Shown here: positions 47,826-63,524 of the stretch, piece by piece | Position numbering within the stretch: position 1 is the first letter of the stretch | Layout of the letters: each line of letters opens with the position of its first letter | NCBI GenBank assembly: GCA_902517505.1 | Contig: CABYCL010000005.1 | Coordinates: forward strand, 1 to 63,564 | Direction of reading: 5' to 3' | DNA from: an uncultured SAR86 cluster bacterium | Lineage (GTDB): Bacteria > Pseudomonadota > Gammaproteobacteria > Magnimaribacterales > D2472 | Length of the DNA stretch: 63,564 nucleotides | The notes under the pieces: generated by a model | Database searches by the model: none | Told to the model about the DNA's origin: nothing | What the model saw: the letters and a program-made list of their open reading frames with translations, nothing else | Made by a program: the position numbers and the translations under genes

Positions 47826-48746
47826 TTAAAACTTATATTCAAATCCTACAGATACATATTCTGCATTCTTCGATGTTTTATTACTTTCTAAGTCTGAATA
47901 ATGAAGAAAGACTTTGGCAACTTTTGAAATCTTATACATATAACCTAAGGAGTTTTGTTTTCCTGATTCAAGTTTAATATCAGAGCTAGCTGCTTGAAGA
48001 TATGCACTACCCTTATCTGATACTTTCTTCTTAAGACTAATTAGATGCCCTTTCTCAGATACGCCCGTAGATAATTTTTTAGTGGATTGATAGAGAACTC
48101 CAACATCAATACCTAAAGATTCAATTGGGAACGTTGATGCAATTCTTTGATTGTCATAGCCTTTCCCATTTGAGTCTGATGCAAAAGCTAACTTCATAGA
48201 TCCTCTTGAGTAATTCAGTGAGTACGAATCAAACGAACCAGTTGATTGGCTTATGGAATTAAGGGTTACTTTAAGTCCTTTAACTATTTCTGGACTTGTA
48301 TAGCCAACAAAACTATTCATTCTGTTCTCACCTTGAAAAAGATATTTAATATCAGCTCTAGTGTCATTAAATAAATCTACTTTCAATTGAGCAATTTTTA
48401 GAGCTGTGTCATGAGTTCCTGTAAATATTTTTCCAAAATTTCCTTCAATTGCTATAAAAGTATTTCTTTCTTTAAATACTTGCTCTCCATCTGCCCTTCC
48501 TCTTCCATCAGTTGGATCAATTTCGTTTTCAAATTGATAGGATATTTTTAAATTTTCATTTAAATCAAATTTACCTTTTATGCCAAGCCTTGAGGCATTG
48601 TTTTTAAAATCTGTATCTGTTTTAGAGTTTTTATCAGTGCTTTCATAACTAGTATTTATCTTTCCGTAAAATGTAATATCAGAAAGTAGATCAGATGAAA
48701 AACATAAAATAGCTAAAGCAGTACTTAAAGACTTAAATATTTTCAT
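47826..48746 (-). CDS. Outer-membrane porin
   Basis: 306 residues: signal peptide (to about LLS, 22), then a general porin (OmpC/Omp-32-like) barrel starting ITFYGKINTSYE and containing NASRLGIKGKFDLNENLKISYQFENEID, followed by RNTFIAIEGNFGKIFTGTHDT; it ends in Phe (FEYKF). The barrel is Lys-rich, which would favour anions. It lies six bases after the PiT phosphate transporter, so phosphate passage is likely (inference from context). Confidence 0.88.
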   Translation of the reverse strand: MKIFKSLSTALAILCFSSDLLSDITFYGKINTSYESTDKNSKTDTDFKNNASRLGIKGKFDLNENLKISYQFENEIDPTDGRGRADGEQVFKERNTFIAIEGNFGKIFTGTHDTALKIAQLKVDLFNDTRADIKYLFQGENRMNSFVGYTSPEIVKGLKVTLNSISQSTGSFDSYSLNYSRGSMKLAFASDSNGKGYDNQRIASTFPIESLGIDVGVLYQSTKKLSTGVSEKGHLISLKKKVSDKGSAYLQAASSDIKLESGKQNSLGYMYKISKVAKVFLHYSDLESNKTSKNAEYVSVGFEYKF

Positions 48747-48752
48747 TTAGAA

Positions 48753-50006
48753 TTAAACCCCAAAAACTGTCTTTAATATGAAATAAAATAATATTGTTAA
48801 GCTTGCTCCAGCTGGGATTGTTACAACCCAGGAAAGAACAATTCTTCCAATAGAACCAAGATCCAAATGAGAGACACCTTTTGCCAACCCAACTCCTATA
48901 ACTGCACCTACTAATGTATGTGTTGTTGATATTGGAAATCCTATATAAGTTGCAGCTACAACTGTTGATGCTGCAGCCATTTCAGCAGAGAAACCAAGGC
49001 TAGGTGTTAAATGAGTAATCTTACTACCTACTGTCTTAATAACTCTTCCACCAAGCATTGCCAGACCGAAGACAATACCAATACCCCCAATTAAAAGAAC
49101 CCATGGGTTAACAGCTGCTTTTGCTCCTATCGCTCCTTCAGAAGCAACACTTATTATTGCTGACATTGGTCCTATAGCATTTGCAACATCATTTGATCCA
49201 TGAGCAAAGGCCATAGCTGACGCAGTTACGATCATCAAAATAGCAAAAGCTGATTCAACGCCATATTCTCTTATTTTATTTTTATTTAAATTTAATAGAA
49301 TTGCAGTAATAATTGTCACAACCACTCCAAAACCAATTGTCACTAGAACAACTTCATTGTCTGTTAGAGGCAGTCCCACATGCTTGAGTCCTTTTCTTGC
49401 GGTCACAAGACCGATAATCACTGCCACAAAAAATCCATAAAAAGGTATTAACGATACTGCAGCTTGTTCAGGATCTCTTCTGTCTAAAATTAATTTTTTA
49501 GCACTTAAAAAAATTAAAAATGCCATAGTTCCAGATACAGCGGGAGAAACAACCCAACTTGCAGCGATAGTTCCAACTTTACCCCAAGATACTGCTGTAA
49601 AACCCATAGAAATAATAACAAAACCTACTATCGAGCCCACAATTGAATGTGTTGTTGAAACTGGCCAACCCTTTGAGCTGGCTATTAGTAGCCAAGTAGC
49701 AGCAGCAAATAATGCTGACATCATACCGATTATAAAAATATTTTCTTGTCCAATATATAAATCTGGTGAGACTATTCCTTTTCTTATAGTAGAGGTAACC
49801 TCACCACCTGCTAGATAAGCTCCAAGAAACTCAAAAATAGCTGCTATAAATATTGCTTGCCTGAATGTAATAGCTTTGCTTCCTACAGAAGTTCCCATGG
49901 CATTAGCAACATCATTTGCTCCAATACCAAAAGCCATAAAGAAACCAGCAAAAGCTGCAATTAACAATATAATCGTCGGGTCTAAGAATAAATTTTCTAT
50001 AATCAT
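48753..50006 (-). CDS. pit: Inorganic phosphate transporter, PiT family
   Basis: 417 residues, about 11 helices. The twin PiT signatures are clear: GIGANDVANAMGTSVGSKAIT (about 26-46) and AHGSNDVANAIGP (about 267-279), plus STTHSIVGSIVG and STTHTLVGAVIG, one in each half. Brings phosphate (or metal-phosphate) into the cytoplasm with H+ or Na+. It lacks the usual PhoU-like partner gene; instead a porin gene follows. Confidence 0.95.
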   Translation of the reverse strand: MIIENLFLDPTIILLIAAFAGFFMAFGIGANDVANAMGTSVGSKAITFRQAIFIAAIFEFLGAYLAGGEVTSTIRKGIVSPDLYIGQENIFIIGMMSALFAAATWLLIASSKGWPVSTTHSIVGSIVGFVIISMGFTAVSWGKVGTIAASWVVSPAVSGTMAFLIFLSAKKLILDRRDPEQAAVSLIPFYGFFVAVIIGLVTARKGLKHVGLPLTDNEVVLVTIGFGVVVTIITAILLNLNKNKIREYGVESAFAILMIVTASAMAFAHGSNDVANAIGPMSAIISVASEGAIGAKAAVNPWVLLIGGIGIVFGLAMLGGRVIKTVGSKITHLTPSLGFSAEMAAASTVVAATYIGFPISTTHTLVGAVIGVGLAKGVSHLDLGSIGRIVLSWVVTIPAGASLTILFYFILKTVFGV

Positions 50007-50143: not shown

Positions 50144-50983
50144 ATGAGTCTTATTTCTTTAGATCAAAGTGAGTACAAGAGTTTAGATGCTAAATCGTAT
50201 GATCGAGAAAAAAGAAGATTAAGAATTGAATTATTAAAGCTTCAAGAAGATGTCATTAAGAATAATCGAAAGTTATGTATTATTTTTGAAGGAAGAGATA
50301 CTGCAGGAAAGAGTACTGCTATTAGATTTTTTTCTGAATATTTAAGGCCTCAACATTTTAATTATGTCCAACTTGGCATTCCAACCAAATGGGAATCTTC
50401 GCATTGGTTCCAAAGATGGGGGAAAGCATTACCACGTAAAGGTGAAATTTCATTCCTAGATCGTTCCTGGTATACACGTGCAATTACAGAACCAATTATG
50501 GGTTATTGCTCTGAAAATCAATATAGATCTTTTATGAAAAAGGTTAATAAATGGGAAGATGAACAAATGGATAATGGGGTTGAACTAACAAAATTTTATT
50601 TTTCTTTATCAAAAGATCAACAAGAGATAAGAATGAAAGCAAGAAAGAATTCAGAATTGAAATACTGGAAACTCTCAAAAAACGATGAAAAAATCATAAC
50701 TAAGTGGAATGCATTCACCTTATACAAAGAGCAAATGTTTAATCAAACAAGTACCGATAATAGTCCATGGGTCTCTATCAATTCAAATAACAAAATGATT
50801 GCAAGACTAACATCACTTAGATACCTCTTGATTAAAACAGAATATGAAGGCAAAAAAATACTTAAGCCAACAAAATGGTCTAAATCTCTTAATAATTATT
50901 CATCCAATTTAGAAGGTGTGCAATTCGATAATCTTTCATATGATCAATTCATTATTATCAGCAAGTACAGTGATAATTCATGA
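50144..50983 (+). CDS. ppk2: Polyphosphate kinase 2
   Basis: 279 residues, single-domain PPK2. Walker A GRDTAGKS (50-57), Walker B FLDRSWYTRA (Asp 106), a lid segment with RMKARKNSELKYWKLS, and LGIPTKWESSHWFQRW. It transfers phosphate between polyphosphate and nucleotides, mainly to make ATP or GTP from polyphosphate. Its stop and the ppx start overlap in ATGA, so the two are translationally coupled. Confidence 0.93.
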   Translation: MSLISLDQSEYKSLDAKSYDREKRRLRIELLKLQEDVIKNNRKLCIIFEGRDTAGKSTAIRFFSEYLRPQHFNYVQLGIPTKWESSHWFQRWGKALPRKGEISFLDRSWYTRAITEPIMGYCSENQYRSFMKKVNKWEDEQMDNGVELTKFYFSLSKDQQEIRMKARKNSELKYWKLSKNDEKIITKWNAFTLYKEQMFNQTSTDNSPWVSINSNNKMIARLTSLRYLLIKTEYEGKKILKPTKWSKSLNNYSSNLEGVQFDNLSYDQFIIISKYSDNS

Positions 50984-51843
50984 AAATTGCATCAGTCGAT
51001 ATAGGCACCAATGCTGTTAAGTCAAAGATTTTTAAAACAACCCCTACTTCTATAAAATATATTGATGGAATACGTTCACCAATTAGGCTTGGGTCAGATG
51101 TTTTTAAAAAAGGAAAAATATCTGAGAAAAAATTAGATGAATTGTCTAAAACATTACAAAAATATCAAAGAAAATTTAAGAAAGATAAAATAGATCAATA
51201 TGAAATAGTTGCAACAAGCGCTTTAAGAAATTCTTCAAACTCAGAAGATGTTAGAAGATCAATAGAAAATAAAATTGAACACCCTATTAGAATTATTTCT
51301 GGCCTTGAAGAAGCTAAATTAATTAGCTTTCATCCAGAAGCACAACAAGGAAAAAATAAAATGTTTATTGATGTTGGTGGTGGTAGTACTGAAATTTATA
51401 TATATAAATCAAATAAACACTTCGTCCAATCATTTCAGCTTGGTGGTGTTCGATTAATGCTTAAAAAAGATGAAATAAGTGAATGGAAAAGGATGGAAAA
51501 GTGGTTAAAAAATCATAAAGATATAAAAACCATCATCGGTCTTGGAGGCAATATAAGATCATTTTTAAATATTCATAATTCAAAGAAAATGAAAACAGAT
51601 AGCTTTCATGAAAATTTTAAAAAGTTAAATGAACTTAATATTAAAGAAAAAATTGAAAAGTATGGATTTGCATCAGATCGTGCTGATGTTATTGGCTTTG
51701 CAATGCAGATTTATGAAAAAATAATTAAGCAACTAGATATTAAGACTATTCAATCAACTAAATGGGGGGTTTCAGACTCTATTGCTGTAAAAACTTTTCA
51801 TGAGATTTACTCAGACAAAATATCAATTTATGAAGATAAGTAA
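50980..51843 (+). CDS. ppx: Exopolyphosphatase (Ppx/GppA family), short form
   Basis: 287 residues, only the two actin-like domains; the C-terminal HD-like half of E. coli Ppx is absent. Phosphate-binding motifs: DIGTNAVKSKIF (7-18), ATSALRNSSNS, GLEEAKLISF, DVGGGSTEIYIY and IIGLGGNIRSF. It removes terminal phosphates from polyphosphate or pppGpp. Coupled to ppk2 by a four-base overlap. The last 14 bases contain the ATG of the aquaporin relic. Confidence 0.9.
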   Translation: MKIASVDIGTNAVKSKIFKTTPTSIKYIDGIRSPIRLGSDVFKKGKISEKKLDELSKTLQKYQRKFKKDKIDQYEIVATSALRNSSNSEDVRRSIENKIEHPIRIISGLEEAKLISFHPEAQQGKNKMFIDVGGGSTEIYIYKSNKHFVQSFQLGGVRLMLKKDEISEWKRMEKWLKNHKDIKTIIGLGGNIRSFLNIHNSKKMKTDSFHENFKKLNELNIKEKIEKYGFASDRADVIGFAMQIYEKIIKQLDIKTIQSTKWGVSDSIAVKTFHEIYSDKISIYEDK

Positions 51844-51944
51844 ATACATATCAGAATTCTTGGGTACTGGATTTTTGTATTGCACAAATTTTTGGAAGTA
51901 TTTTAGCTTTCTTAGTTTATAGATATTTCTTCAAGACTAATTAA
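51830..51944 (+). pseudogene. Relic of an aquaporin (MIP-family) gene, interior deleted
   Basis: From the ATG at 51830 the frame reads MKISKYISEFLGTGFL, the N-terminus of a MIP channel (compare K-x-I-A-E-F-x-G-T-x-F-L). At about 51877 the frame changes and 51879-51944 reads IAQIFGSILAFLVYRYFFKTN then TAA, the final helix of a MIP channel (typically I-A-Q-x-x-G-x-I-L-A-x-L-x-x-R). Both parts are in order and on the same strand, with about 190 residues missing between, including both NPA motifs. The ATG overlaps ppx by 14 bases and the stop overlaps gspM by eight, as an original gene in this slot would. The remaining short frame is not functional. Confidence 0.7.
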
Positions 51945-52380
51945 AAACAAGTTTTGTTATAGAGTCTTGTTCATTCTTTGAATAAGATATGTTGTTAAGT
52001 GCCCTTCCTAATTTAAAAGCTATTTCATCTGAAATTGAAATTGATTCTTTTAAATTATTTGTTTTAAAAGAAACTATCAGGGAACTACCCTCTTCGACAA
52101 TTACAAGGTCGGATATAGATTCTGGAAGAAGATTGTCTATGAATGCCTCTATATCATCTATGTTTGATGATTGGCTTATCAAGGTATTACTCAAGAGTTC
52201 TGCCTTGGAAACAACATACTCATAGTCAGATTTAACCTTATCTAATTGTTTTGATGAAAAGTTTAAATTCCCAACAGTAGTATTTATTATAAAAAATAAT
52301 ACGGCAACAACAACTATAAAAAATGCTGCAAAAATTAAATTTTTTTCTCTTGTATTAAGACTATTTAAAAAACTATTCAT
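51937..52380 (-). CDS. gspM: Type II secretion inner-membrane protein GspM
   Basis: 147 residues. A short cytoplasmic start (NSLNTREKNLIF), one helix (about 16-33), then a periplasmic domain with a coiled-coil stretch and a ferredoxin-like C-terminal part (DLVIVEEGSSLIVSFKTN). The similarity is weak, as usual for GspM; identity comes from length, topology and its place after gspL. It anchors the assembly platform with GspL. Its start overlaps gspL by eight bases. Confidence 0.85.
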   Translation of the reverse strand: MNSFLNSLNTREKNLIFAAFFIVVVAVLFFIINTTVGNLNFSSKQLDKVKSDYEYVVSKAELLSNTLISQSSNIDDIEAFIDNLLPESISDLVIVEEGSSLIVSFKTNNLKESISISDEIAFKLGRALNNISYSKNEQDSITKLVFN

Positions 52381-53530
52381 CTTTTAATTCAATTTTGATT
52401 TCGCCTGAAATTTCATTGTTCTCAGTAATGATATTTTCATCAATAATATTTATATTAAAGGTATCAACACTATTTTTAACTACCGCATATTGTATTTGTG
52501 GTAATTTTTCTATATTTAAAGTCGCTTGATTAGAGCTAAAGTCTATTTTAATAGCTTCTATATACTTCTCTCCAAGCGAAATCATAAAACCAAAATTATC
52601 AAATTTTGATTCATTTCTTGATGATTGTAATTTTGATGATCCAGGTATTTGTTCAATTAACTGATCGATTTGAATTTTTGGAGTGATAACTCTTTTCGTA
52701 TTTTTATCAATCATTTTAAAAATATTGAATATTTCAGTTTCATAAATATTCATCTGTTTATTATTTTGAGCTGTAAAGATATATGGCAAAGCAATTATGG
52801 ATGTTATTAAGAATAAGCACGCATATATCTCAATTCTAGAAAAATTTAACTTGTTAAAGATATTTTGAAATGAAAATTCAAACTTAAATAGATTTGGGAG
52901 ATTGTCATTGATTGATGAAATAAATTTGGCAATAGAAATATTTTTATTTTGATTGTAACCGTCAAGCTCTTTAATAGATTTATTTATAAAAACGTTGGGT
53001 TCAAAATTTATATATATGGATTTAACCGTATCTAAGTATTGTGCTAATGAGTCTTGGTCTGTTGAAGAACCTGTTCCATCATTGAATGAAAATAAAAATC
53101 TATTATTAAATTCAGTAATAGTATTGGTATCAAATTTTTTATTTAAAAAATAATCAGGAATTAAAATAACTTTGCACTTCAATTGGTTAAGGGATCTGTT
53201 TAATTCGTTATAAAATCTCTTATCCATTACAAATCCAATATTTTCAAATAAAAAAAACTCATTTTCTGAAACATCATTGACGATGAATGAGTCAATATCA
53301 GATATAAAATTTGCTAAATTATTTTGAGTCGATAAATTATCATTTCTTTCAAAAGCATAGCTACCGATAGCGGATGAAGGCAATAAGTAAATTAATTTAT
53401 CTGTATGAGATAGAGTTAAAAAATCTTTAATATCAGAGAAATTAGATACTTTTTTGTAATTATCAGAACTTCTATGGAAACTTCCTTGGTTAAAATCTAA
53501 ATTATTTGGGTATGCTACAAAAGTATCCAT
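52373..53530 (-). CDS. gspL: Type II secretion protein GspL
   Basis: 385 residues. An actin-like cytoplasmic domain (about 1-225; poorly conserved), one transmembrane helix (about 236-252; IEIYACLFLITSIIALPYIF), then a periplasmic ferredoxin-like domain. GspL links the ATPase GspE to the inner-membrane platform. Placed between gspK (one-base overlap) and gspM (eight-base overlap). Confidence 0.88.
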   Translation of the reverse strand: MDTFVAYPNNLDFNQGSFHRSSDNYKKVSNFSDIKDFLTLSHTDKLIYLLPSSAIGSYAFERNDNLSTQNNLANFISDIDSFIVNDVSENEFFLFENIGFVMDKRFYNELNRSLNQLKCKVILIPDYFLNKKFDTNTITEFNNRFLFSFNDGTGSSTDQDSLAQYLDTVKSIYINFEPNVFINKSIKELDGYNQNKNISIAKFISSINDNLPNLFKFEFSFQNIFNKLNFSRIEIYACLFLITSIIALPYIFTAQNNKQMNIYETEIFNIFKMIDKNTKRVITPKIQIDQLIEQIPGSSKLQSSRNESKFDNFGFMISLGEKYIEAIKIDFSSNQATLNIEKLPQIQYAVVKNSVDTFNINIIDENIITENNEISGEIKIELKDE

Positions 53531-54498
53531 TAAATACCATTATAAATTCTTGAAATAATAAAACCATTATTATTATCTTCGTAAATTATGATGCTTTTTG
53601 AGGAGGATACAAATTTCTTAAAACTAACTTCAGAATTTAATTCAAAGATATTTGATGTAACTTTTATATTTCCATAAGCAAGATCAAAATCAAAATTTGG
53701 AAAACTTCTCATAAAGTGATTTAAATCATCAAAACCTGATTCAGGAATATTATCAATTATATATTCGGCATCTTTAATAGATAGATTAGGAAAGATAGAA
53801 CTCAATAAATATACATCCTTTAAGTCTAATGTATTAATGTTTAAAGAGATTTGCGATGCATTGGGTATTGTGCAGAAATAATTGTTAAAGATATTCCAAT
53901 CTATTTGTTTTACAGCAGGAATGCTCTTTAATTCATCAATAGATACCATTAATCTCATCCCAGTATATTCTCTTGGGCTATGTAAAGGACCTGAGTAGTA
54001 ATAGTCCTCAAGACCATAAGCCCTAGGATTTGAATCTTTATCAATCCAATCGATAGTTTGATCAATTAGCTCTTCAATGACGTTATTGTCTATTTCATTT
54101 AAAGTTAAGATTTTTCTGAATGCGGCTGATGAATTCTTATTTTCAACATAATTTCCATCTTTTAAAGTAACAATTGAATTAATATTAAAACAATTTCCAT
54201 AATCTGATATTTTCCCAACAATATTAGCCCCATTTAAATCAAATACCATTGGCTGGTTTATTATTGGGTTATTCTTTAATAACTTGTTTCGATTAAACTT
54301 CAGCTCTTTTTCTATCTTGTCTTTTGCTAAAGATTCAATATTACGAAAAATATTTAATGATAAAGTTTGAAACTCTATATATTGTGCCCTTTTCAGCGAT
54401 AAAAAATATTTATTACCAAATAAGACTGCAACAGACGACAATAGCAAAACTATTAATAGAATAGATATTAAAACGACGCCTTTATCTTTTGAATACAT
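53530..54498 (-). CDS. gspK: Type II secretion minor pseudopilin GspK
   Basis: 322 residues. The start at 54498 gives the leader MYSKDKG followed by VVLISILLIVLLLSSVAVLF, a normal seven-residue prepilin leader; an ATG six codons upstream would give an odd longer one. It lacks the usual Glu at +5, as expected of GspK, the pseudopilus tip. A large globular domain (Ca-binding and SAM-like region, PRAYGLEDYYYSGP) follows. It overlaps gspJ by 17 bases and gspL by one. Confidence 0.92.
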   Translation of the reverse strand: MYSKDKGVVLISILLIVLLLSSVAVLFGNKYFLSLKRAQYIEFQTLSLNIFRNIESLAKDKIEKELKFNRNKLLKNNPIINQPMVFDLNGANIVGKISDYGNCFNINSIVTLKDGNYVENKNSSAAFRKILTLNEIDNNVIEELIDQTIDWIDKDSNPRAYGLEDYYYSGPLHSPREYTGMRLMVSIDELKSIPAVKQIDWNIFNNYFCTIPNASQISLNINTLDLKDVYLLSSIFPNLSIKDAEYIIDNIPESGFDDLNHFMRSFPNFDFDLAYGNIKVTSNIFELNSEVSFKKFVSSSKSIIIYEDNNNGFIISRIYNGI

Positions 54499-55075
54499 AA
54501 TCAATATTCGGTTCAATTATCCATAAATACTCTTTACCACTTCTTTTAAATTCGAGTTTTATCAAAGTTGGTATTTTTGTTTCTGTTTCAGGATTTATGG
54601 GCCACTTTTCATGCCATTTTTTTTCATACATAAATCTTATATCTAGCTCAGATATATCTTCTAGAAAATTTGATTCAATATTTTCACCACTATTAAAAGG
54701 ATTGGAGGAAAAGAATTGTTTTCTTATAAGTTTGTCATTATTAAGTTCGTATTCAATCCTTTTAATAGGAGATGTTTCATTAGAAATGGATTTAATTTTG
54801 GAATTAAATGAAATCCTTTTATCAATATTGCTTCCCAAAAATGTCCCTTTGATGGGATTTCCATAATAATCGCGCAATGAAACATTTATTATTTGTCTTA
54901 AATCCCTTCTTAAAGTAATTGATGAAAAATTTAATACTCTTGCTGACTGTAACCTTTCAGATGATAGACGCTCCGTTTCTAATGAAGACTGAAGTATGTT
55001 TGATGAAATAATAGCTATCATTGAAAGAATGACTAATGACACCAAGACCTCTATTAATGTAAAACCTTTATTCAT
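54482..55075 (-). CDS. gspJ: Type II secretion minor pseudopilin GspJ
   Basis: 197 residues. Very short leader MNKG, then FTLIEVLVSLVILSMIAIIS with the pseudopilin Glu at +5. RRDLRQI at about 56-62 is typical of GspJ. Part of the tip complex with GspI and GspK. Four-base overlap with gspI (ATGA). Confidence 0.93.
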   Translation of the reverse strand: MNKGFTLIEVLVSLVILSMIAIISSNILQSSLETERLSSERLQSARVLNFSSITLRRDLRQIINVSLRDYYGNPIKGTFLGSNIDKRISFNSKIKSISNETSPIKRIEYELNNDKLIRKQFFSSNPFNSGENIESNFLEDISELDIRFMYEKKWHEKWPINPETETKIPTLIKLEFKRSGKEYLWIIEPNIDYVFKR

Positions 55076-55440
55076 TTACTGTATAAGCCTTTGGTCGTAT
55101 AAATATATGTTTCTTCATTTTTAAGCTTTACAAATATCTCATATTCAAAAAACTCATCGCTGGGTCCATTGCTTATAGTTTCATCCCATTGCCATTTCTG
55201 TCCTCCCATAACCATTTCACCACTTCTTTGTAATGGTTTTAATGATTTTTCTAGAGTATGTATTAATGAAATACGATTATTTGCTACCTCTTTAGCTAAA
55301 TATCTTTGTTCTAAGTCAAAGCTTGATGTTGCTGTTGATATTATTAAATTATAAATAGTTATTACAGACACGCTTAAGATAAATAATGAAACCACTACTT
55401 CAATTAAACTAAATCCTTTCTCAGTAGTTGATGAATTCAT
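55072..55440 (-). CDS. gspI: Type II secretion minor pseudopilin GspI
   Basis: 122 residues. Leader MNSSTTEKG, then FSLIEVVVSLFILSVSVIT with Glu +5. The AKEVANNRISL helix and the final short sheet match GspI; length is normal. Overlaps gspH by 20 bases. Confidence 0.92.
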   Translation of the reverse strand: MNSSTTEKGFSLIEVVVSLFILSVSVITIYNLIISTATSSFDLEQRYLAKEVANNRISLIHTLEKSLKPLQRSGEMVMGGQKWQWDETISNGPSDEFFEYEIFVKLKNEETYIYTTKGLYSK

Positions 55441-55927
55441 TTATTACTTTCCCATTATTTTTTATAACTATTCGTTGAATATAATCATTATGATAAATAT
55501 TAATATCTCCTCCTGAATTTTCACCAGAGGGATAAAAAATAACTAGAGGAGACTTGCTCTGTTTATCTTCTAATTCAATTAAAGTCCCATCTTCAAATTT
55601 AAATGTTTTCTTTAATGATGCTATTTCACTTAAAAAAGAATTATCGAAATCATAATCTATTTCTTGGTTTTTATTATCATATATATACTCAGCATACTGA
55701 TTAGTTGAATTTAAATACCATCCAATTATATTTCCAGTGACTATGCTTTCATATGTTAAGAAGCTAACTGTATTTTTAAATGAATTATTTTGAGAATCTA
55801 CTGATCTTAGAGTGCTAAAGTTGAGAGTAATAAGCGTGGTTGTAATACCAATAATAAATAAAACAACAAGAATTTCTATTAAGGTAAACCCTTTTTGATG
55901 TTTATTACTGCTGCATCCAGTTTCCAA
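55421..55927 (-). CDS. gspH: Type II secretion minor pseudopilin GspH
   Basis: About 168 residues. FTLIEILVVLFIIGITTTLI with Glu +5 follows KG. No ATG is close to the leader. I chose TTG at 55927, giving a 13-residue leader ending NKHQKG and a 23-base overlap with gspG. The longer frame up to 56068 translates the gspG antiphase and is implausible as a leader. The body is the GspH beta-sandwich. Start uncertain; gene certain. Confidence 0.88.
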   Translation of the reverse strand: METGCSSNKHQKGFTLIEILVVLFIIGITTTLITLNFSTLRSVDSQNNSFKNTVSFLTYESIVTGNIIGWYLNSTNQYAEYIYDNKNQEIDYDFDNSFLSEIASLKKTFKFEDGTLIELEDKQSKSPLVIFYPSGENSGGDINIYHNDYIQRIVIKNNGKVINEFINY

Positions 55928-56336
55928 TATCAGAATCCTCGCCTGATCCTCCTTCAACGCCATCGGCCCCGAGAGTATACAAGTCATATTTAAAAGACCT
56001 TCGTGAAGGATGTTCATATATATATTCTCTTCCCCATGGATCTTTTGGAATTGAAGAAATATAACCACCTTCAGGATACAAGAATGGATTTTTTAATTCG
56101 GAGTGAGGATTAACAAGAGCATCTAGACCTTGAGAGGTGGTAGGATAAGATAATTCATTAAATTTATATATTTCTAAGGCTTTATTTGTGTTTGCCATAT
56201 CAGCTCTAATCTTTTCTAGATTAGCTCTTTGGAATACTGGGTCAACACTAACCACAACGACGGTCGCTAATATACCCAAAATAACTAAGACAGCCATTAA
56301 CTCTATCAGCGTAAATCCTTTTTCTTTATTCTTCAT
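55905..56336 (-). CDS. gspG: Type II secretion major pseudopilin GspG
   Basis: 143 residues. Leader MKNKEKG, then FTLIELMAVLVILGILATVVV with Glu +5. Diagnostic GspG features: YKFNELSYPTTSQGLDALV, DPWGREY, and the Ca2+-binding end LGADGVEGGSGEDSDIGNW. It is the main subunit of the pseudopilus piston. Four-base overlap with gspF. Confidence 0.97.
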   Translation of the reverse strand: MKNKEKGFTLIELMAVLVILGILATVVVVSVDPVFQRANLEKIRADMANTNKALEIYKFNELSYPTTSQGLDALVNPHSELKNPFLYPEGGYISSIPKDPWGREYIYEHPSRRSFKYDLYTLGADGVEGGSGEDSDIGNWMQQ

Positions 56337-57523
56337 ATTGCGAGGGTATTCATTTGCATTATTGGTATTAGTATAGCTAGAACTATCAACATAATAAATC
56401 CACCCATAAATATTATTACAATAGGTTCAAGTAATGATAAAAAGATTGCTCTTTTATTTTCAATTTCAGATTTTAAAAAATGAGAGACTTTATTAAACAT
56501 TTTCACTAAATTACCAGACCTATAACCACTAGATACTAATTGAATAAATATATCAGGGAAGACTCCTTCATTCTTTAGAGAAACTATAAAGTCTTTACCT
56601 TCAACAACATCATTTTTTGCATTTAATATAATTTTTGAAAGGAACTTGTTGTTAAAAATTTTTGAGCACTCTTCAAGAGCAACATCAAGATTTGTTCCAG
56701 AAGCTAACAACAGTTCCATGGTACTTGAGAATCTTTCTAATTCTGAGTTCAATATAAAATTACCAAGTAAGGGTGTGTTAAGGAGCTTTCGATCAAATAT
56801 AATTTTATTCTCTATTTTACTAACATAATTTTTATAAAAATAAAAAATAATGCCAATAGAAATAACAATCACGATTAGTATTGGAATAATGTTATTTGAG
56901 ATTCCTATTAAAAACTTAGTTATAAATGGCAGCTCTGCTCCAGCCTTTATAAATTGACCAACTACTTGAGGTAATACAAATGCTAACAGCGAAATTATTA
57001 CTACAATTGAAAATCCTATTAAAATTAAAGGATATGTTAGAGCAGATATAACTTTTTGCTTAATAGATGCGCTCTCTTCTAAATAATCAGCAAGCTTATT
57101 AAAAACAATATCTAAATTACCAGATGAATCTCCAGCAGTAACCATTGAAATATATGTATCAGAAAAAACGCCAGGAAATTTTTTCATTGAACTGCCAAGT
57201 CTTTTACCCTGAACAATATCCTCTTTTAAACTATATAAAATATAAACTAAATTCTTATTTTGTAATTGATTAGCGGTTATATTTAATGCTTCTACAATTG
57301 GTGTGCTTGCTTCAAGTAACGTTGCCAATTGTCTTGTCATAATAACGATATCTTTATCTTTTATTTTTAAAGCTTTACCTAGATCTTTTGATTCAGAGAC
57401 TTTTAAAGGAGTCAACTTTAGATCTTTTACAAGTTTCCTTGCTTCACGCTCTGACTCTGCACTGAGTATGCCTTTTTTTTTCGCGCCATCCTGATTAATT
57501 GCTGTATAACTATAGGCTGGCAT
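56333..57523 (-). CDS. gspF: Type II secretion platform protein GspF
   Basis: 396 residues with three transmembrane helices and two copies of the T2SSF domain (about 65-190, motif GDSSGNLDIVFNKLADYLE, and about 265-390, motif SGYRSGNLVKMF). Inner-membrane platform that couples GspE to the pseudopilus. Overlaps gspE by 14 bases. Confidence 0.96.
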   Translation of the reverse strand: MPAYSYTAINQDGAKKKGILSAESEREARKLVKDLKLTPLKVSESKDLGKALKIKDKDIVIMTRQLATLLEASTPIVEALNITANQLQNKNLVYILYSLKEDIVQGKRLGSSMKKFPGVFSDTYISMVTAGDSSGNLDIVFNKLADYLEESASIKQKVISALTYPLILIGFSIVVIISLLAFVLPQVVGQFIKAGAELPFITKFLIGISNNIIPILIVIVISIGIIFYFYKNYVSKIENKIIFDRKLLNTPLLGNFILNSELERFSSTMELLLASGTNLDVALEECSKIFNNKFLSKIILNAKNDVVEGKDFIVSLKNEGVFPDIFIQLVSSGYRSGNLVKMFNKVSHFLKSEIENKRAIFLSLLEPIVIIFMGGFIMLIVLAILIPIMQMNTLAI

Positions 57524-58997
57524 CTTCTTTAATATTATTTACTCTTATAATTTCTTCACAAGATGTAACTCCATTAACAATCAAATCTATAGACGCTTGT
57601 TCAATTGATTGATTATCTTTAAAAACATGACCTGCTATCTCATTTTCAGAGGCGTTATTGTGAATGAGATCTTTTAATTTTTTATCTACTTGGATACATT
57701 CCGCAATAGCAATTCTTCCTTGATATCCAGTATGATTGCAATGATCACATCCATTCGGATTATAAACAGATTTATTCTTATCTAAATTAAAAATATCAAC
57801 ATGCTCAGAGGTTGGTTTACTTTCTGTTTTACATTTTGGACAGAGTCTTCTAACTAATCTTTGGGAAATAATTGTTCTTAAACTTGATGCCAGTAAAAAA
57901 GATTCAATACCCATATCCCTTAATCTTGTTATTGCTGCAACTGCGCTATTTGTGTGTACAGTCGATAGGACAAGATGTCCTGTGAGGCTTGACTGTATTC
58001 CTATTTGAGCTGTTTCAACATCCCTCATCTCACCAACCATTACTACATCAGGATCTTGTCTTAGTATTGCTCTTAAACCTTTTGCAAAGGTATATCCAGT
58101 TTTAGTATTTACTTGTGTTTGTCCTATTCCATTCAATGTGTATTCAATAGGATCTTCAACTGTAAGAATGTTTTGAGAAGAATCGCTCAAAAATCGTAAG
58201 CCAGCATATAGAGTAGTTGTTTTTCCTGATCCGGTTGGTCCAGTAAAAAGAATAATTCCCTCAGGATTTTTAAGTGAATTTTTGTAATTAGACAGAATCT
58301 TATCTGGAAGACCAAGATCATCTATGTTTATTTGAGCTGCTTGTTTATCTAGAATTCTTAGAACTATTCTTTCACCATAAGATGATGGAAGAGTTGATAC
58401 TCTTACATCAACATTTTTATCTCCAAGGGATAATGAAACTCTTCCATCCTGAGGAAGTCTTCTTTCTGAAATATCAAGACCAGAAATAATTTTTATTCTA
58501 GATATTAGTACTGATGCAATTTTGCTATCTTGTTTAAGAATTTCTTTTAATATTCCATCAATTCTAAATCGAACAATAATATGATCCTCGTATGGTTCAA
58601 AATGAATATCAGATGCTCTGTTTTTAATAGCCTGACTGATAACACCATTAATTAATTTAATGATGGGAGTATCGTTATTACCGCTAAGCAGATCTTCGGT
58701 GGCATTAATACTTCCAGCAAAGTCTTGTAAATCAAATTCATCAGAGAGTTCTTCAGATATATCATTATCATGATCAGTGATTGAAAAAGAGTTAGTAAGA
58801 ATGTCATTGAATTTTTCTGGTTCACATAATTCAAACTTAAAACTTGAATTTAAATATCTTTGGATTTCGTTATAAATTTCTTTCGATAGTAGATTTGGTG
58901 AGGATACAACTACACCATCTTTGGTATTAAGTGCTATTACATTATTTTCTTTTACAAAATCATATGGCAGAACATCTGATTTGATATTTTCACTCAT
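57510..58997 (-). CDS. gspE: Type II secretion ATPase GspE
   Basis: 495 residues. Walker A GPTGSGKTT (253-261), Asp box EDPIEY, Walker B DPDVVMVGEMRD, His box STVHTNSA, and a four-cysteine zinc site (CPKCK ... CDHC) near 395-425. A hexameric ATPase on the cytoplasmic face that powers pseudopilus assembly. Starts three bases after gspD. Confidence 0.97.
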   Translation of the reverse strand: MSENIKSDVLPYDFVKENNVIALNTKDGVVVSSPNLLSKEIYNEIQRYLNSSFKFELCEPEKFNDILTNSFSITDHDNDISEELSDEFDLQDFAGSINATEDLLSGNNDTPIIKLINGVISQAIKNRASDIHFEPYEDHIIVRFRIDGILKEILKQDSKIASVLISRIKIISGLDISERRLPQDGRVSLSLGDKNVDVRVSTLPSSYGERIVLRILDKQAAQINIDDLGLPDKILSNYKNSLKNPEGIILFTGPTGSGKTTTLYAGLRFLSDSSQNILTVEDPIEYTLNGIGQTQVNTKTGYTFAKGLRAILRQDPDVVMVGEMRDVETAQIGIQSSLTGHLVLSTVHTNSAVAAITRLRDMGIESFLLASSLRTIISQRLVRRLCPKCKTESKPTSEHVDIFNLDKNKSVYNPNGCDHCNHTGYQGRIAIAECIQVDKKLKDLIHNNASENEIAGHVFKDNQSIEQASIDLIVNGVTSCEEIIRVNNIKEDASL

Positions 58998-59000
58998 TGC

Positions 59001-60845
59001 TTATTCTTTTGGTTTAGTAAGATCAATAATAGATTTTTTATTTTTGATTTCTTGTTCAGCTTTGAAGTAGTTATATTTTTCTAAAGATATTTGATTTGTA
59101 ATATCGGAATCATTAAGAATTGTCGGTTTTAAAAAAACCATTAAATTTTTAGTGCTAGTGCTTGTAGATGATGATTGAAAAAGCCTACCTAAAAGAGGTA
59201 TGGATCCTAATACTGGTACCTTAGATATAACCTCTTGATTATCCTCATCTATAAGGCCACCCAATACAATTATTTGGTTGTTGTCTACAAGTACCGTTGT
59301 TTCTATCTCTCTTTTATTTGTAATAACATCTAATCCTGATTGAGCGACGCCAGCGATACCAGATACACCTTGTTTAATATTCAATATAACAGAGGCTCCT
59401 TCATTAATTTGAGGAGTGATTTCTAACTCTATACCAACTTCCTGTCTAGATGTCGTTCTGAATGGGTTAGAGTTATTTGTACCAAGGCTCTCACCAGTAG
59501 TGATTGGAATTTCTTGACCTATGAAGAGTCGTGCAGGCTCATTATCCATTGCAAGAATTGAAGGAGTAGAAAGAATATTTGAATCTGTATCATCTGCTAT
59601 TGCATTTAATATGCCTACAAAATTATCCTTTCCTTTTGTTAAGTCACCAAATCCAGCAACAAGTCCCTGTGTATTTAAAAGAGATGATATTGCAGTAGTT
59701 GTTAATGTAACATCCTGTTCATCATCGGCAGCACCTGCGATTGCAAGTAAATCTGCACCAGTGCCTGAAAATCTTGTAATTCCAACAGGAATACTATCCT
59801 CATCATTGCCAGAGTAAATAGCCTCAACACCTAGCCTTCTTGCTGCATTCTCTGAGAGATCAACGACAATTGCTTCAACAAGAACTTGAGCTCTTCTAAT
59901 ATCTAGTTTTGAGATAATATTTCTAATCGAATTAAGATTATCTTCAGCTGAGGAAATAATTAGTGAATTTGTTTTTTCGTGATAAGTAATTGCAGTCTGC
60001 TGTCCTTCAGCATCACTGATAAAACTTCCTGAGATAGAATTTAAAATTGCTGCTATATCTGCAGCTTGAGCATATTTTAAATAAATTACATCTAATGAAT
60101 CATTCGACGTTATATCATTATCAAGGGATCTTAAAGTTGATTCAATATTTTGAGTAATCAAATCATTTGCTGATAATATTATTGAGTTTGATGGAGTAAA
60201 AGGTATAGCTACAAATTGGTTAATTGTAGGATTATTTTGAGATTTTAATCTATCCAAAATCCTTACTCCTTCTATTGAAGAAAGATTATTAAGTTTAATT
60301 ATTGAAATTTTAGCAGTATTATTTTTATCTAAATCATTAAGCAAATTTCTAATTCTCTTAACATTACTAGCTCTATCAACAAGTAATATAGAATTTATAG
60401 AAGAAATGTTAGATAAATGAGACTGTCTTCCTGTAATAGGCTTAATCATAGGAAGAATTTCCTCAGTAGATCTATTTATTAATGGGATAACTGCTGTTTC
60501 AAATCCTCCATCTGAATAATCTTCTGTTTTATCTCTTGTAGCTTCGTTTTCTGGAACTACTCTTAAAAATCCATCTTCAGATATAGTGCTAAATCCATTG
60601 ACTTGAATAGTTCTTAAATAAACATCCCAAACTTGTTTTCTATCAAGGTTTGCATTTGAATAAATTGTAATCTTTCCTTTAACTCTTGGATCCAAGATAA
60701 TTGTCTTCTTTGAAAATTGAGCAATATCTTGCGTAACTTTTTTAATATCTACATCTTCATAATTCAATATAAAAGAATCTTGTGCAGTAACATTGCTAAT
60801 TAATATTAGTGTAAGAGCAAGAATTTTGAATCTGTTATTAATCAT
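59001..60845 (-). CDS. gspD: Type II secretion outer-membrane secretin GspD
   Basis: 614 residues. Signal peptide (to TAQ, about 22), N0 domain (FILNYEDVDIKKVTQDI...), N1-N3 repeats with ATVEAIVVDL-like VLVEAIVVDLSENAARRLGVE, then the secretin barrel with RQEVGIELEITPQINEGASV and VPVLGSIPLLGRLFQSS. The mature end has a short S-domain-like tail, and no gspS pilotin is seen here. Four-base overlap with gspC (ATGA). Confidence 0.97.
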   Translation of the reverse strand: MINNRFKILALTLILISNVTAQDSFILNYEDVDIKKVTQDIAQFSKKTIILDPRVKGKITIYSNANLDRKQVWDVYLRTIQVNGFSTISEDGFLRVVPENEATRDKTEDYSDGGFETAVIPLINRSTEEILPMIKPITGRQSHLSNISSINSILLVDRASNVKRIRNLLNDLDKNNTAKISIIKLNNLSSIEGVRILDRLKSQNNPTINQFVAIPFTPSNSIILSANDLITQNIESTLRSLDNDITSNDSLDVIYLKYAQAADIAAILNSISGSFISDAEGQQTAITYHEKTNSLIISSAEDNLNSIRNIISKLDIRRAQVLVEAIVVDLSENAARRLGVEAIYSGNDEDSIPVGITRFSGTGADLLAIAGAADDEQDVTLTTTAISSLLNTQGLVAGFGDLTKGKDNFVGILNAIADDTDSNILSTPSILAMDNEPARLFIGQEIPITTGESLGTNNSNPFRTTSRQEVGIELEITPQINEGASVILNIKQGVSGIAGVAQSGLDVITNKREIETTVLVDNNQIIVLGGLIDEDNQEVISKVPVLGSIPLLGRLFQSSSTSTSTKNLMVFLKPTILNDSDITNQISLEKYNYFKAEQEIKNKKSIIDLTKPKE

Positions 60846-61264
60846 AAGTTATTTCCAACAAGATTCTCAATTTTATATAATTTTTCTTGGTTACGAAATA
60901 TAACTTCATCTTTATTTACTTCAACTAATTCGTAAATACCCTCAAGTTTTTCACCTTTAGCAACAACAAATTCTTTATTTCCCTTTTTAAGAATAACTGA
61001 CGAGTCTGTGTCTCCTGATCTATATCCAATGAGTTTATATTCAAAAGAAGCGATACTCTTAATGTTATTTGAATTATTATTTATTTGGTTTTCATTAGGA
61101 TTAAATGAAAAAGCAGTCATGTTAGGTATAGTTATTTTTTTGATATCAGGTTGATTGATAAAAGTATTTATATTTGAGACAGAAAAAAACAAAACAGGCA
61201 GGGCTAGAGCCAAGATAATAATCTTTTTAATCTTTATAAAGTCCATAATTGAATGAGCAATCAT
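60842..61264 (-). CDS. gspC: Type II secretion protein GspC, no PDZ domain
   Basis: 140 residues: short cytoplasmic start, one helix (about 13-30), a linker, and the homology region (about 70-135; FEYKLIGYRSGDTDSSVILKKGNKEFVVAKGEKL) that contacts GspD. The chain ends there, so the PDZ or coiled-coil domain found in longer GspC proteins is missing. Start at 61264 or the ATG at 61246; no clear ribosome-binding site for either. First gene of the operon, downstream of the PhoB box at 61421. Confidence 0.88.
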   Translation of the reverse strand: MIAHSIMDFIKIKKIIILALALPVLFFSVSNINTFINQPDIKKITIPNMTAFSFNPNENQINNNSNNIKSIASFEYKLIGYRSGDTDSSVILKKGNKEFVVAKGEKLEGIYELVEVNKDEVIFRNQEKLYKIENLVGNNL

Positions 61265-61293
61265 TTTAGCTCATTTTTTAGGACAACAGATAT

Positions 61294-61383
61294 TTATTGG
61301 TTAATACCAGATAACTTTATAACTTTAGTAAGTCTTCCGGATTTCATAAAGATATGAAATTTATTCCAAAAAGATGTAATCAT
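61294..61383 (-). CDS. Possible 29-residue leader peptide before gspC
   Basis: ATG with GGAGAAAC just upstream, a better ribosome-binding site than gspC itself has. The 29 residues (ITSFWNKFHIFMKSGRLTK...) are basic and amphipathic. It lies between the PhoB box and gspC, so it would be the first reading frame on the gsp mRNA. The evidence is only the ribosome site and position. Confidence 0.35.
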   Translation of the reverse strand: MITSFWNKFHIFMKSGRLTKVIKLSGINQ

Positions 61384-61420
61384 AAGTTTCTCCAAATTAA
61401 AACATTTATGCAACATAAAT

Positions 61421-61438
61421 GTGACATTTGTGTGACAT
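61421..61438 (-). promoter_or_regulatory. PhoB box of the type II secretion operon
   Basis: Read on the minus strand: ATGTCAC ACAA ATGTCAC, two identical seven-base half-sites 11 bases apart, close to the consensus CTGTCAT-N4-CTGTCAC. After ten bases a -10-like CATAAA follows (about 61405-61410), the usual Pho promoter spacing. It sits between the phoR stop and gspC, pointing to gspC. Confidence 0.8.
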
Positions 61439-61476
61439 TCTATTATGAAAACCTTTTAAAGTAAAGCTTTAAGGCT

Positions 61477-62823
61477 TTATACACCAGGGACTGTAAACCA
61501 AAAAGTTGAGCCTTCTTGTGGTTTAGATTCAATTCCTACCTCTCCATTCAAACTATTTACAAGATGTTTTACTATTGCTAGCCCTAATCCACTGCCTTGA
61601 TTTTCAGTAGCTCTGGCAGATGCTGTTCTGTAAAATCTACTAAAAATATGATTTATATCTTCATCTGCAATTCCTTCGCCCTTATCTTTGATCATTACTT
61701 TAATATAACCATTAGAGTCATTTACAGTTGATATAGTTATATCTGATCCTTTTTCAGAATACTTAATAGCATTATCTATTAAATTATCCATAATTCTTTC
61801 AATAGCTTGGAGGTCAGCGTTAATAGTTCCTTTATGATTTGATTTAAAAATTATTTTAATTCCTTTCTTTTTTGAAAGATTACTAATGGATTGAACATAT
61901 CTATTAATAAATGAATTTAAATCAATTTCTTCAAAGTTTAACTTTAATTCTCCATATTCTATTCTTGATAAGTCAAGTAATGATGAAACCATGTCTGTTA
62001 ATCTTTCAGCATTATGCAATATTGCATTTGCAAAAATTCTTCCTTGTATCTTATCTTCTAAAGCTCCATCAATTAGAGTTTCTGAATTTGCTCTAATGAC
62101 ACTAATTGGGGTCCTTAACTCATGTGATAAATTTGAAATAAAGTCCCTTCGCATTGAATCCAAGCTTCTTAATTGAGTAATATCATGAACTACTAAAATA
62201 TTTTCTCTTGTATTCTTGCTTTGATTTATAGTTGCTAAGACCCACCTTGTAGAATTATCATTCAATTCAATTTCAAATTCTATATCTGCTTTTTTTTTCT
62301 TTTTTGATCTTCTGTACAGATACTCAATAGATTTAATCCCTAGATCTTTTATATTATCTTCATGTTTGCTTTTGAGATTAAGGATTTGTGAGAATTGATC
62401 ATTTTCAAATGTTATATCTCCATTACTATCTGTTACAACAATACCCTCCCCTAGATCATCAAGAACAGAACCAAATTGATCTCTTTGTTTACCAATTAAA
62501 TTAATATTATTCTTTAAATTTTCTGATATTTCTGAAATGCCTTTAGCTACATTACCAAATTCGCCTGTATCTTTTCTTAAGGCCTTAATAAATTTCTTTT
62601 TTGTGCTTCCTTGTGCGATTTGAGATGTTAAAGCCTCTAAAGTTGATATATTTTTATATGTAAAATTACTAAAAATCATAGAGATAATTAATGTTGTTAT
62701 TAATATCGCAGGGACTAGTAATAAAATTGAGAGATCTGGGTTTTTAATTATTTGGTATGAAAGAAGAACACCAATCACTATTGATATAAATATTACTATA
62801 AATATTCTAAGTCTAAATAGCAT
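61477..62823 (-). CDS. phoR: Phosphate-sensing histidine kinase PhoR
   Basis: 448 residues. Two N-terminal helices (about 5-52), HAMP-like linker, PAS domain (about 115-215), dimerisation/phosphoacceptor with His 234 in SHELRTPISVI, and an ATPase domain with NLIDNAIKYS (N box), DKGEGIAD (G1) and GSGLGLAIVKH (G2). Phosphorylates PhoB under phosphate limitation. It starts eight bases after phoB; this layout (2 TM, PAS, no large periplasmic domain) is that of PhoR. Confidence 0.93.
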   Translation of the reverse strand: MLFRLRIFIVIFISIVIGVLLSYQIIKNPDLSILLLVPAILITTLIISMIFSNFTYKNISTLEALTSQIAQGSTKKKFIKALRKDTGEFGNVAKGISEISENLKNNINLIGKQRDQFGSVLDDLGEGIVVTDSNGDITFENDQFSQILNLKSKHEDNIKDLGIKSIEYLYRRSKKKKKADIEFEIELNDNSTRWVLATINQSKNTRENILVVHDITQLRSLDSMRRDFISNLSHELRTPISVIRANSETLIDGALEDKIQGRIFANAILHNAERLTDMVSSLLDLSRIEYGELKLNFEEIDLNSFINRYVQSISNLSKKKGIKIIFKSNHKGTINADLQAIERIMDNLIDNAIKYSEKGSDITISTVNDSNGYIKVMIKDKGEGIADEDINHIFSRFYRTASARATENQGSGLGLAIVKHLVNSLNGEVGIESKPQEGSTFWFTVPGV

Positions 62824-62831
62824 TTATTATC

Positions 62832-63524
62832 TTAGTCTGGAGTTCTAGAAAATTTATATCCAACACCTCTTATGGTTTGGACATATTTACCCATTGAGCC
62901 AAGCTTCTCTCTTAATCTTTTAATATGAGTATCAACTGTTCTAGTTGTAACCTCTGAATTATATCCCCACACTTCAGATAATAATTGATCTCTTGATTGT
63001 ACTCTTCCTCGTTTATCTACAAGCTCTCTTAATAGACGAAATTCAAGAGCCGTAAGTATTATTTGTTCAGAGTCTACGTGAACCTCATGTGAATCGACAT
63101 CAATTACTAAATCACCAAACTGCCTTTCTACCTCAACGAGATCTTTCTTTTTATCACGTCTTTTAAGTACAGCTTTAACCCTTAAGATTAACTCTTTTAC
63201 ACTAAAAGGCTTAGTGACATAATCATCAGCACCCAGCTCAAAGCCTACAAGTTTGTCAACTTCATCATCTTTTGCGGTTAATATAATAACTGGAATCGCT
63301 TCTGTCTGAATATTGTTTTTTATCTGTTTACATAGATCTAATCCAGATCCATCAGGCAACATTAAATCTAAAATTATTAATGCAAAGTTATTGTTATTTA
63401 TTTTTTGATTAGCGTCATTTAAAGAACCAACAGCTGACACTTTAAATCCTTCACGACCTAAATTATATTCTAGGTTCTTACGAATATCTGGTTCGTCTTC
63501 AATAACTAGTATATTCTCATTCAT
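62832..63524 (-). CDS. phoB: Response regulator PhoB
   Basis: 230 residues. Receiver domain with acidic pocket EDEPD (9-13), phosphoacceptor Asp 53 in LDLMLPDGSG, Thr in ILTAKD and Lys in VTKPF; OmpR-type winged helix (about 130-225; TALEFRLLREL, VDTHIKRLREKLG, TIRGVGYKF). Binds Pho boxes such as the one at 61421. phoB-phoR-gspC-M lie on one strand in that order. Upstream DNA is cut off at the window edge. Confidence 0.95.
   Translation of the reverse strand: MNENILVIEDEPDIRKNLEYNLGREGFKVSAVGSLNDANQKINNNNFALIILDLMLPDGSGLDLCKQIKNNIQTEAIPVIILTAKDDEVDKLVGFELGADDYVTKPFSVKELILRVKAVLKRRDKKKDLVEVERQFGDLVIDVDSHEVHVDSEQIILTALEFRLLRELVDKRGRVQSRDQLLSEVWGYNSEVTTRTVDTHIKRLREKLGSMGKYVQTIRGVGYKFSRTPD

Follow-up and report, generated by a model that had tools for sequence, protein, structure and literature searches.

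The window analysed here is a 63,564-nucleotide stretch, contig C5 of a SAR86 genome (D2472; 1.06 Mb in 28 contigs, 82.85% complete). SAR86 belongs to the uncultured bacteria that are common in surface seawater, and the best named matches of the window's GspD protein are mostly SAR86 cluster bacteria, at identities of no more than 91%. On the minus strand the window carries, in order, phoB, phoR, a PhoB-type box and the type II secretion genes gspC to gspM; beyond these lie ppk2 and ppx (50144-51843), convergent with the gsp genes and part of a phosphate neighbourhood, followed by a pit-type transporter and a porin. The genes are as follows:

62832-63524, minus strand: phoB (open reading frame; TIGR02154, 242.4 bits against a cut-off of 296.2)
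61477-62823, minus strand: phoR, short form, 448 aa (TIGR02966, 257.8 bits against a cut-off of 334.2)
60842-61246, minus strand: gspC (weak GspC/T2SSC matches, under curated cut-offs)
51937-60845, minus strand: gspD to gspM, the remaining type II secretion gene cluster (open reading frames, profiles, order and resemblance)
50980-51843, plus strand: ppx (best profile matches under curated cut-offs)
50144-50983, plus strand: ppk2 (best profile matches under curated cut-offs)
48753-50006, minus strand: pit-type transporter (open reading frame and profile matches)
47826-48746, minus strand: porin (open reading frame and profile matches)

Among the gsp genes, gspK scores above its profile cut-off, gspM scores under it and gspL has no match, the others being named by order and resemblance. 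Comparison with relatives makes 61246 the likely start of gspC, although the longest open reading frame begins at 61264. The gap between phoR and gspC holds a further set of features, all on the minus strand:

61460-61465: -35 element TTTACT of a sigma-70-type promoter (blind scan and row comparison)
61437-61442: -10 element TAGAAT behind a 17-bp spacer, overlapping half-site 1 (blind scan and row comparison)
61421-61438: half-sites 1 and 2, forming the reported PhoB-type box, ATGTCAC ACAA ATGTCAC (pattern scans and relatives)
61410-61416: half-site 3, ATGTTGC, in the same 11-bp register
61399-61405: half-site 4, weaker, ATGTTTT, in the same register by eye
61390-61393: ribosome-binding site GGAG of the microprotein gene (by position and relatives)
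61294-61383: unannotated microprotein gene, 29 aa, MITSFWNKFHIFMKSGRLTKVIKLSGINQ (open reading frame, relatives and selection)
61252-61275: hairpin AATGAGC-N10-GCTCATT just before gspC, with a U-tract that is weak in the window and stronger in many relatives
61263-61268: -10-like TAAAAT in the hairpin loop (sequence)

A preliminary description of this DNA had reported two identical ATGTCAC half-sites with an 11-base period on the gsp strand between phoR and gspC, and both are present, at 61432-61438 and 61421-61427. It had overlooked half-sites 3 and 4 and the 29-aa open reading frame that follows them with its GGAG site, as well as the sigma-70-like promoter (61437-61465) that ends on half-site 1. 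Direct repeats of 7 bases separated by 4 bases are the described form of the PHO box (PMC4415409), and the SAR86 repeats share its TGTCA core and 11-bp period. The exact pattern MTGTCAYNNNNMTGTCAY occurs once in the window (0.009 expected under a dinucleotide model) and once in the whole 1.06-Mb source genome (0.15 expected under the same model). At up to two mismatches the window holds seven matches against 4.99 expected from the shuffled window, so that solely the exact match stands out. Two further boxes of the source genome, each with one mismatch, were rejected as regulon members because both lie within coding open reading frames, and no exact box precedes pit, ppk2 or the porin within the window. 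Across 100 genomes including the source, the exact pattern gave 31 rows in 28 genomes, compared with one row for the reversed control; three of the 27 loci inspected (L199, L200 and L206) lie clearly within long coding frames. The three-half-site pattern gave 23 rows, representing 16 distinct sites in 16 of the 100 genomes, and none for the reversed control. Searching 60800-61560 against Rfam returned no matches at E values up to 1.

We next compared the 600 bp upstream of gspC between loci sorted by the length of the phoR-gspC gap. Rows with identical upstream stretches were counted once, which reduced the long-gap group from 28 rows to 20, while near-identical ones were kept apart, and four loci were left out of the counts, either because gspC was cut by a contig end (L019 and L048) or because gspC was missing (L031 and L078). 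Where the gap measures 203-325 bp, the box is present at one mismatch or fewer in 19 of 20 distinct loci, including that of the window, and is exact in 13; the sole exception (L026) has it at three mismatches. A chance match without function, for which one could cite the roughly five matches expected per shuffled window at up to two mismatches, is refuted by this conservation: the box was kept while the neighbouring spacer diverged, and the exact-match expectation for a whole genome is far below one. We regard that explanation as practically excluded. In contrast, the box was found at up to two mismatches in none of nine distinct loci whose gap is 34-52 bp, which have no space for the microprotein either, and in none of the 20 distinct loci with no PhoR in reach. 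Its proposed conservation in relatives with phoR-gspC adjacency thus holds for the long-gap loci and fails for the short-gap loci, and the box is not a feature of that adjacency. The array accompanies the microprotein rather than gsp or the phoR-gspC junction.

The first gene behind the box is not gspC, which we rejected as the first target since the microprotein frame lies between, but an unannotated gene for a 28-29-aa microprotein. Its open reading frame looks intact in 19 of the 20 distinct long-gap loci (all except L080), with the consensus MVKxIWNKFHxFMKSGRLNKVIKISGIx and 11 residues invariant in 13 sequences. Over 22 codons in 17 distinct coding sequences, excluding L080 and L192, in which no intact frame was found, and L041, which contains N letters, pN/pS was 0.23, and pN was lower than pS in all 136 pairs; the other two frames of the same stretch gave 0.95 and 2.25. 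By this measure the microprotein is under purifying selection. No Pfam or NCBIfam match was found (in Pfam, for two sequences at E values up to 1), and membership in DUF1127 or another known family was rejected for want of any profile match. An amphipathic helix is likewise unconvincing, as the hydrophobic moments of three sequences were equalled by 43%, 9% and 13% of shuffles. Two order-wide searches recovered the microprotein in 25 and 26 of 203 genomes, source genome included; outside the window's family there were two weak matches, in G179 (E 0.004-0.008) and G103 (E 0.036). At one intact-looking microprotein locus (G056:C2:56427-57117), the adjoining phoB was matched as two overlapping pieces, one with internal stops.

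The arrangement of promoter and array bears on what a bound protein would do. A blind promoter scan found one site against 2.0 expected, which is not significant alone, and conservation of the promoter is what counts. Of 22 rows compared, 20 have TTTAC at a distance of 27 or 29 bp ahead of the box, with a TANNNT hexamer 17 bp past that element, ending on or just before half-site 1 (three of these -10 elements were assigned by eye). Of the two remaining rows, one (L162) has TTTAC at -34, as part of a TTTACA-18-TATAAT promoter further up, and L070 lacks TTTAC at the usual place. In 12 rows picked because TTTAC lay at offset -27 and identity was below 90%, the -35 had a conservation of 0.96, the spacer 0.52 and the -10 element 0.76, while half-sites 1 to 3 reached 0.94, 0.96 and 0.86. 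A protein bound to the array would thus be predicted to cover the start site, a blocking geometry that suggests repression. Some relatives share this placement by eye: in f4 relatives, TTGACA or TTGACT-17-TATATT (L219 and L223) or TTGACA-17-TAGTAT (L224) is followed, after the -10, by GTGACAT repeats and then by a secreted-looking gene of about 101-103 aa (123 aa in L224), with the array reversed relative to the gene. In f2 relatives (L213, L215 and L218, by eye), the repeats lie between TTTACA or TTTACT and TATAAA.

Activation is the best-known role of PhoB boxes, and in a class II PhoB-activated promoter the box replaces the -35, with a -10 about 10 bp downstream. The preliminary description had placed a -10-like element at this Pho spacing. 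The closest sequence there, CATAAA (61405-61410), is without the final T, and the upstream TAGAAT is both better and conserved. Counting against repression, CATAAA could nonetheless act as a weak activated -10, and in f3 relatives a TTTACT element follows the box ahead of a porin gene (L201 and L171), an activator-like layout.

These observations leave room for the alternative that phosphorylated PhoB activates from the box and that the transcript runs through the microprotein gene into gspC-M, making secretion inducible by phosphate starvation. The box does lie on the gsp strand as 11-bp repeats that fit the pattern without mismatch, only about 137 bp separate the start of the microprotein from that of gspC, the hairpin before gspC has a weak U-tract in the window, and the f3 porin offers a precedent for the layout. 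Yet the array is overlapped by the sigma-70-like promoter, no good -10 was seen by eye at Pho spacing, and gsp is kept without the box in the nine short-gap and 20 other distinct loci. In Caulobacter, moreover, one report (PMC2996285) gives a rise in gspE and gspL mRNA of just 1.7-fold in a poor medium, diluted rather than defined for phosphate starvation, with GspL protein similar in both media.

The sequence next to gspC also argues against activation from the box. A hairpin of at least five pairs stands just before gspC in 24 of 34 rows, with and without the box (L065 uses another stem), typically as AAAATGAGCTACACTANGTAGCTCATTTT with a T-rich tail. It is absent from ten rows, which include three with the box (L032, L034 and L064) and every one of the seven from short-gap loci. 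By eye the stem varies on both sides between groups (GAGCTAC/GTAGCTC, GGGCTAC/GTAGCCC and GGGCTC/GAGCCC). Of the 34 rows, 33 have a -10-like pattern before gspC, a loose one that was scored without a control. A hairpin and/or -10-like element is seen in the boxed form as well as in the short-gap and large-pair forms (described below), and gspC therefore appears to keep its own hairpin and/or -10-like element irrespective of the box, as a candidate terminator, promoter or both. Weighing both sides, we consider activation of gspC-M from the box unlikely. The proposal that the gsp operon is switched on by phosphate starvation is not supported as it stands, given an array that goes with the microprotein, a blocking geometry and an element belonging to gspC itself.

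The phoR-gspC gap is also an exchange site, occupied either by the box and microprotein or by a secreted-looking protein and a TonB receptor (the large pair), with repeated switching between them. A TonB-dependent receptor lies directly before gspC in 19 of the 20 loci with no PhoR in reach; in the twentieth (L028) gsp follows an acyl-CoA ligase and is itself followed by phoBR (L160). Reading the large-pair loci further revealed a protein of about 955-995 aa ahead of the receptor and behind phoR (L154 3609-9249 and equivalents), internally repetitive, secreted-looking and with no Pfam match; no homologue of it was found in the source genome. Among 60 genomes of the window's family, 20 had a microprotein match, 21 the large protein, 20 neither and one both (hypergeometric P 3.6e-4 for exclusion, ignoring kinship and genome incompleteness). 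In the single genome with both (G047), the microprotein frame looks broken at its start and no box was seen. Mapped onto a tree of 48 GspD proteins, the box form requires eight changes (seven forced by starred branches) and the large-pair form seven (six forced), and L008 (box) and L011 (large pair) are sisters on short branches. Some large-pair labels on this tree were first assigned by the absence of PhoR; the loci so labelled have the TonB receptor in 19 of 19 cases and the other large protein in eight of eight with enough upstream sequence. One locus (L162 in G035) is an exception in carrying the box at one mismatch, followed by a secreted-looking protein of 101 aa and, after it, the large pair. 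Separately, TGTAAC/TGTCAC-like repeats about 11 or 22 bp apart were seen by eye in several of ten large-pair gaps, which, if real, would weaken the statement that large-pair loci are without such sites.

Exchange of the cassette appears to extend into phoR. Within the genus of the window, loci of the box form have a short PhoR (448-456 aa in uncut frames) and those of the large-pair form a long PhoR (587-589 aa), and the sensor part of PhoR seems to have been swapped together with the cassette (61477-62823 compared with L154-L166). Two other genera of the family differ, with long open frames for PhoR (586-614 aa) at their box-form loci.

Which protein binds the array is less direct to read, as the half-site TGTCACA is nearly palindromic and its orientation is thus no identifier of the binder. 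A survey of the Trans_reg_C family (PF00486, OmpR/PhoB-type; control positive in 10 of 14 genomes) found PhoB as the only such protein in the source genome, in which another regulator may be missing given its incompleteness. PhoB was found in 73 of 100 SAR86-order genomes, and the recognition-helix residues known from E. coli PhoB appear to be kept in RTVDTHIKRLREKL. The claimed PhoB-type box behind phoBR is in this sense borne out, as an operator kept in relatives beside the only Trans_reg_C protein detected: a phosphate link of the box is likely, and we infer PhoB as its binder. The array could instead be the operator of another regulator, for instance a TGTNACA-recognising repressor of small secreted-protein genes. 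The near-palindromic half-sites would suit such a protein, as would arrays before small secreted-looking genes in f2, f4 and G035 and before a divergent copy of the microprotein elsewhere in four genomes. Against it stand the 11-bp direct repeats in the 7+4 form described for the PHO box (PMC4415409), the adjacency of the array to phoBR, the lack of a second Trans_reg_C protein in the source genome survey, and the f3 box, which precedes the porin of a phoBR-ppx-ppk2 cluster (L171, one mismatch; L201). The L171 porin matches that of the window at 33%, and the L201 porin looks the same by eye. We judge a different regulator to be unlikely.

The displaced microprotein genes just mentioned (G001, G012, G014 and G025) are divergent, with TGTCAC/TGTAAC repeats before them, partly spaced at 11 bp, and a terminator-like hairpin behind, by eye. 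At L194-L197, a divergent microprotein copy is accompanied by TTGACA, TGTCAC/TGTAAC repeats and its own terminator-like hairpin; the neighbouring gene at L195 is presumably related to photolyases or cryptochromes, judged by eye. TGTCAC arrays were also noted at the promoters of genes for small proteins (about 100-170 aa) that look secreted, in f4 (L219 and L222-L225), f2 (L213-L216 and L218) and L212, and at L213 a calcineurin-like phosphoesterase (by eye) lies one gene further on from the box.

Our best explanation, to which we give an even chance, is that phosphorylated PhoB represses the microprotein promoter and that gsp is probably largely independent. Three to four half-sites would overlie the region where transcription starts from a conserved sigma-70 promoter, which would give a short transcript, whose first and main product would be the positively charged 28-29-aa microprotein. 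Phosphorylated PhoB, encoded just upstream, would bind the array and block the promoter in phosphate shortage, so that the microprotein would be made mainly at sufficient phosphate. The gsp operon, with its own hairpin and/or -10-like element, would probably be expressed largely independently, with at most some read-through. Of this picture, the sequence itself shows the array, the promoter-like elements, the selected microprotein, the conservation of these parts and the element next to gspC; binding by PhoB, repression and the uncoupling of gsp are deduced.

Using pstA as a marker, we found a match in five of 100 SAR86-order genomes and none in the other 95, including the source genome (control positive in 13 of 14 well-known genomes), which bears on how PhoBR senses phosphate in SAR86. 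A highly speculative proposal, to which we attach little probability, is a minimal switch for a bacterium without Pst: the microprotein, produced at sufficient phosphate from the promoter next to phoR, would damp PhoR, and phosphorylated PhoB would in turn shut the microprotein gene, forming a double-negative loop with all-or-none behaviour, and the cassette (in the window's genus together with short versus long PhoR) would be an alternative phosphate-sensing module in SAR86. The main result is an operator of the Pho type, kept in relatives and placed on the promoter of a new microprotein, at a site where cassettes are exchanged. Tied to this operator beside phoR, the microprotein offers a handle on phosphate sensing by SAR86 PhoBR, and the locus is a warning that a box upstream of a large operon need not control that operon.

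Searching the literature on SAR86 type II secretion, PhoB or the small protein found no paper on the phoR-gspC locus, judged by titles and abstract openings. The Hxc type II secretion system of Pseudomonas aeruginosa has secretion genes linked to phosphate control. The SAR86 locus is alike in joining phosphate to secretion, and differs in that its box belongs to a microprotein promoter. SAR86 carries plcP, and Pho boxes have been predicted in plcP clusters of marine bacteria (PMC4796936). Small DUF1127 proteins bind PhoR (PMC12501420); they resemble the SAR86 microprotein in being very small, and the latter is tied to PhoR and PhoB by position while two of its sequences had no DUF1127 match at E values up to 1. 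Caulobacter crescentus has elpS (cc0170), whose product is made in phosphate starvation, and a TonB receptor (cc0171) directly before gspC (PMC2996285). Other SAR86 loci, with a secreted-looking protein and a TonB receptor before gspC, are similar in gene order, whereas the phoR-gspC gap of the window has neither. Finally, the array and the E. coli-type Pho system (PMC4415409) are alike in the 7+4 repeats, the TGTCA core and adjacency to phoBR, and extra tandem units make the array resemble complex Pho operators; unlike the E. coli type, the source genome has no pstA match and its array, which precedes a microprotein gene, sits on the -10 and start of a complete sigma-70-like promoter.
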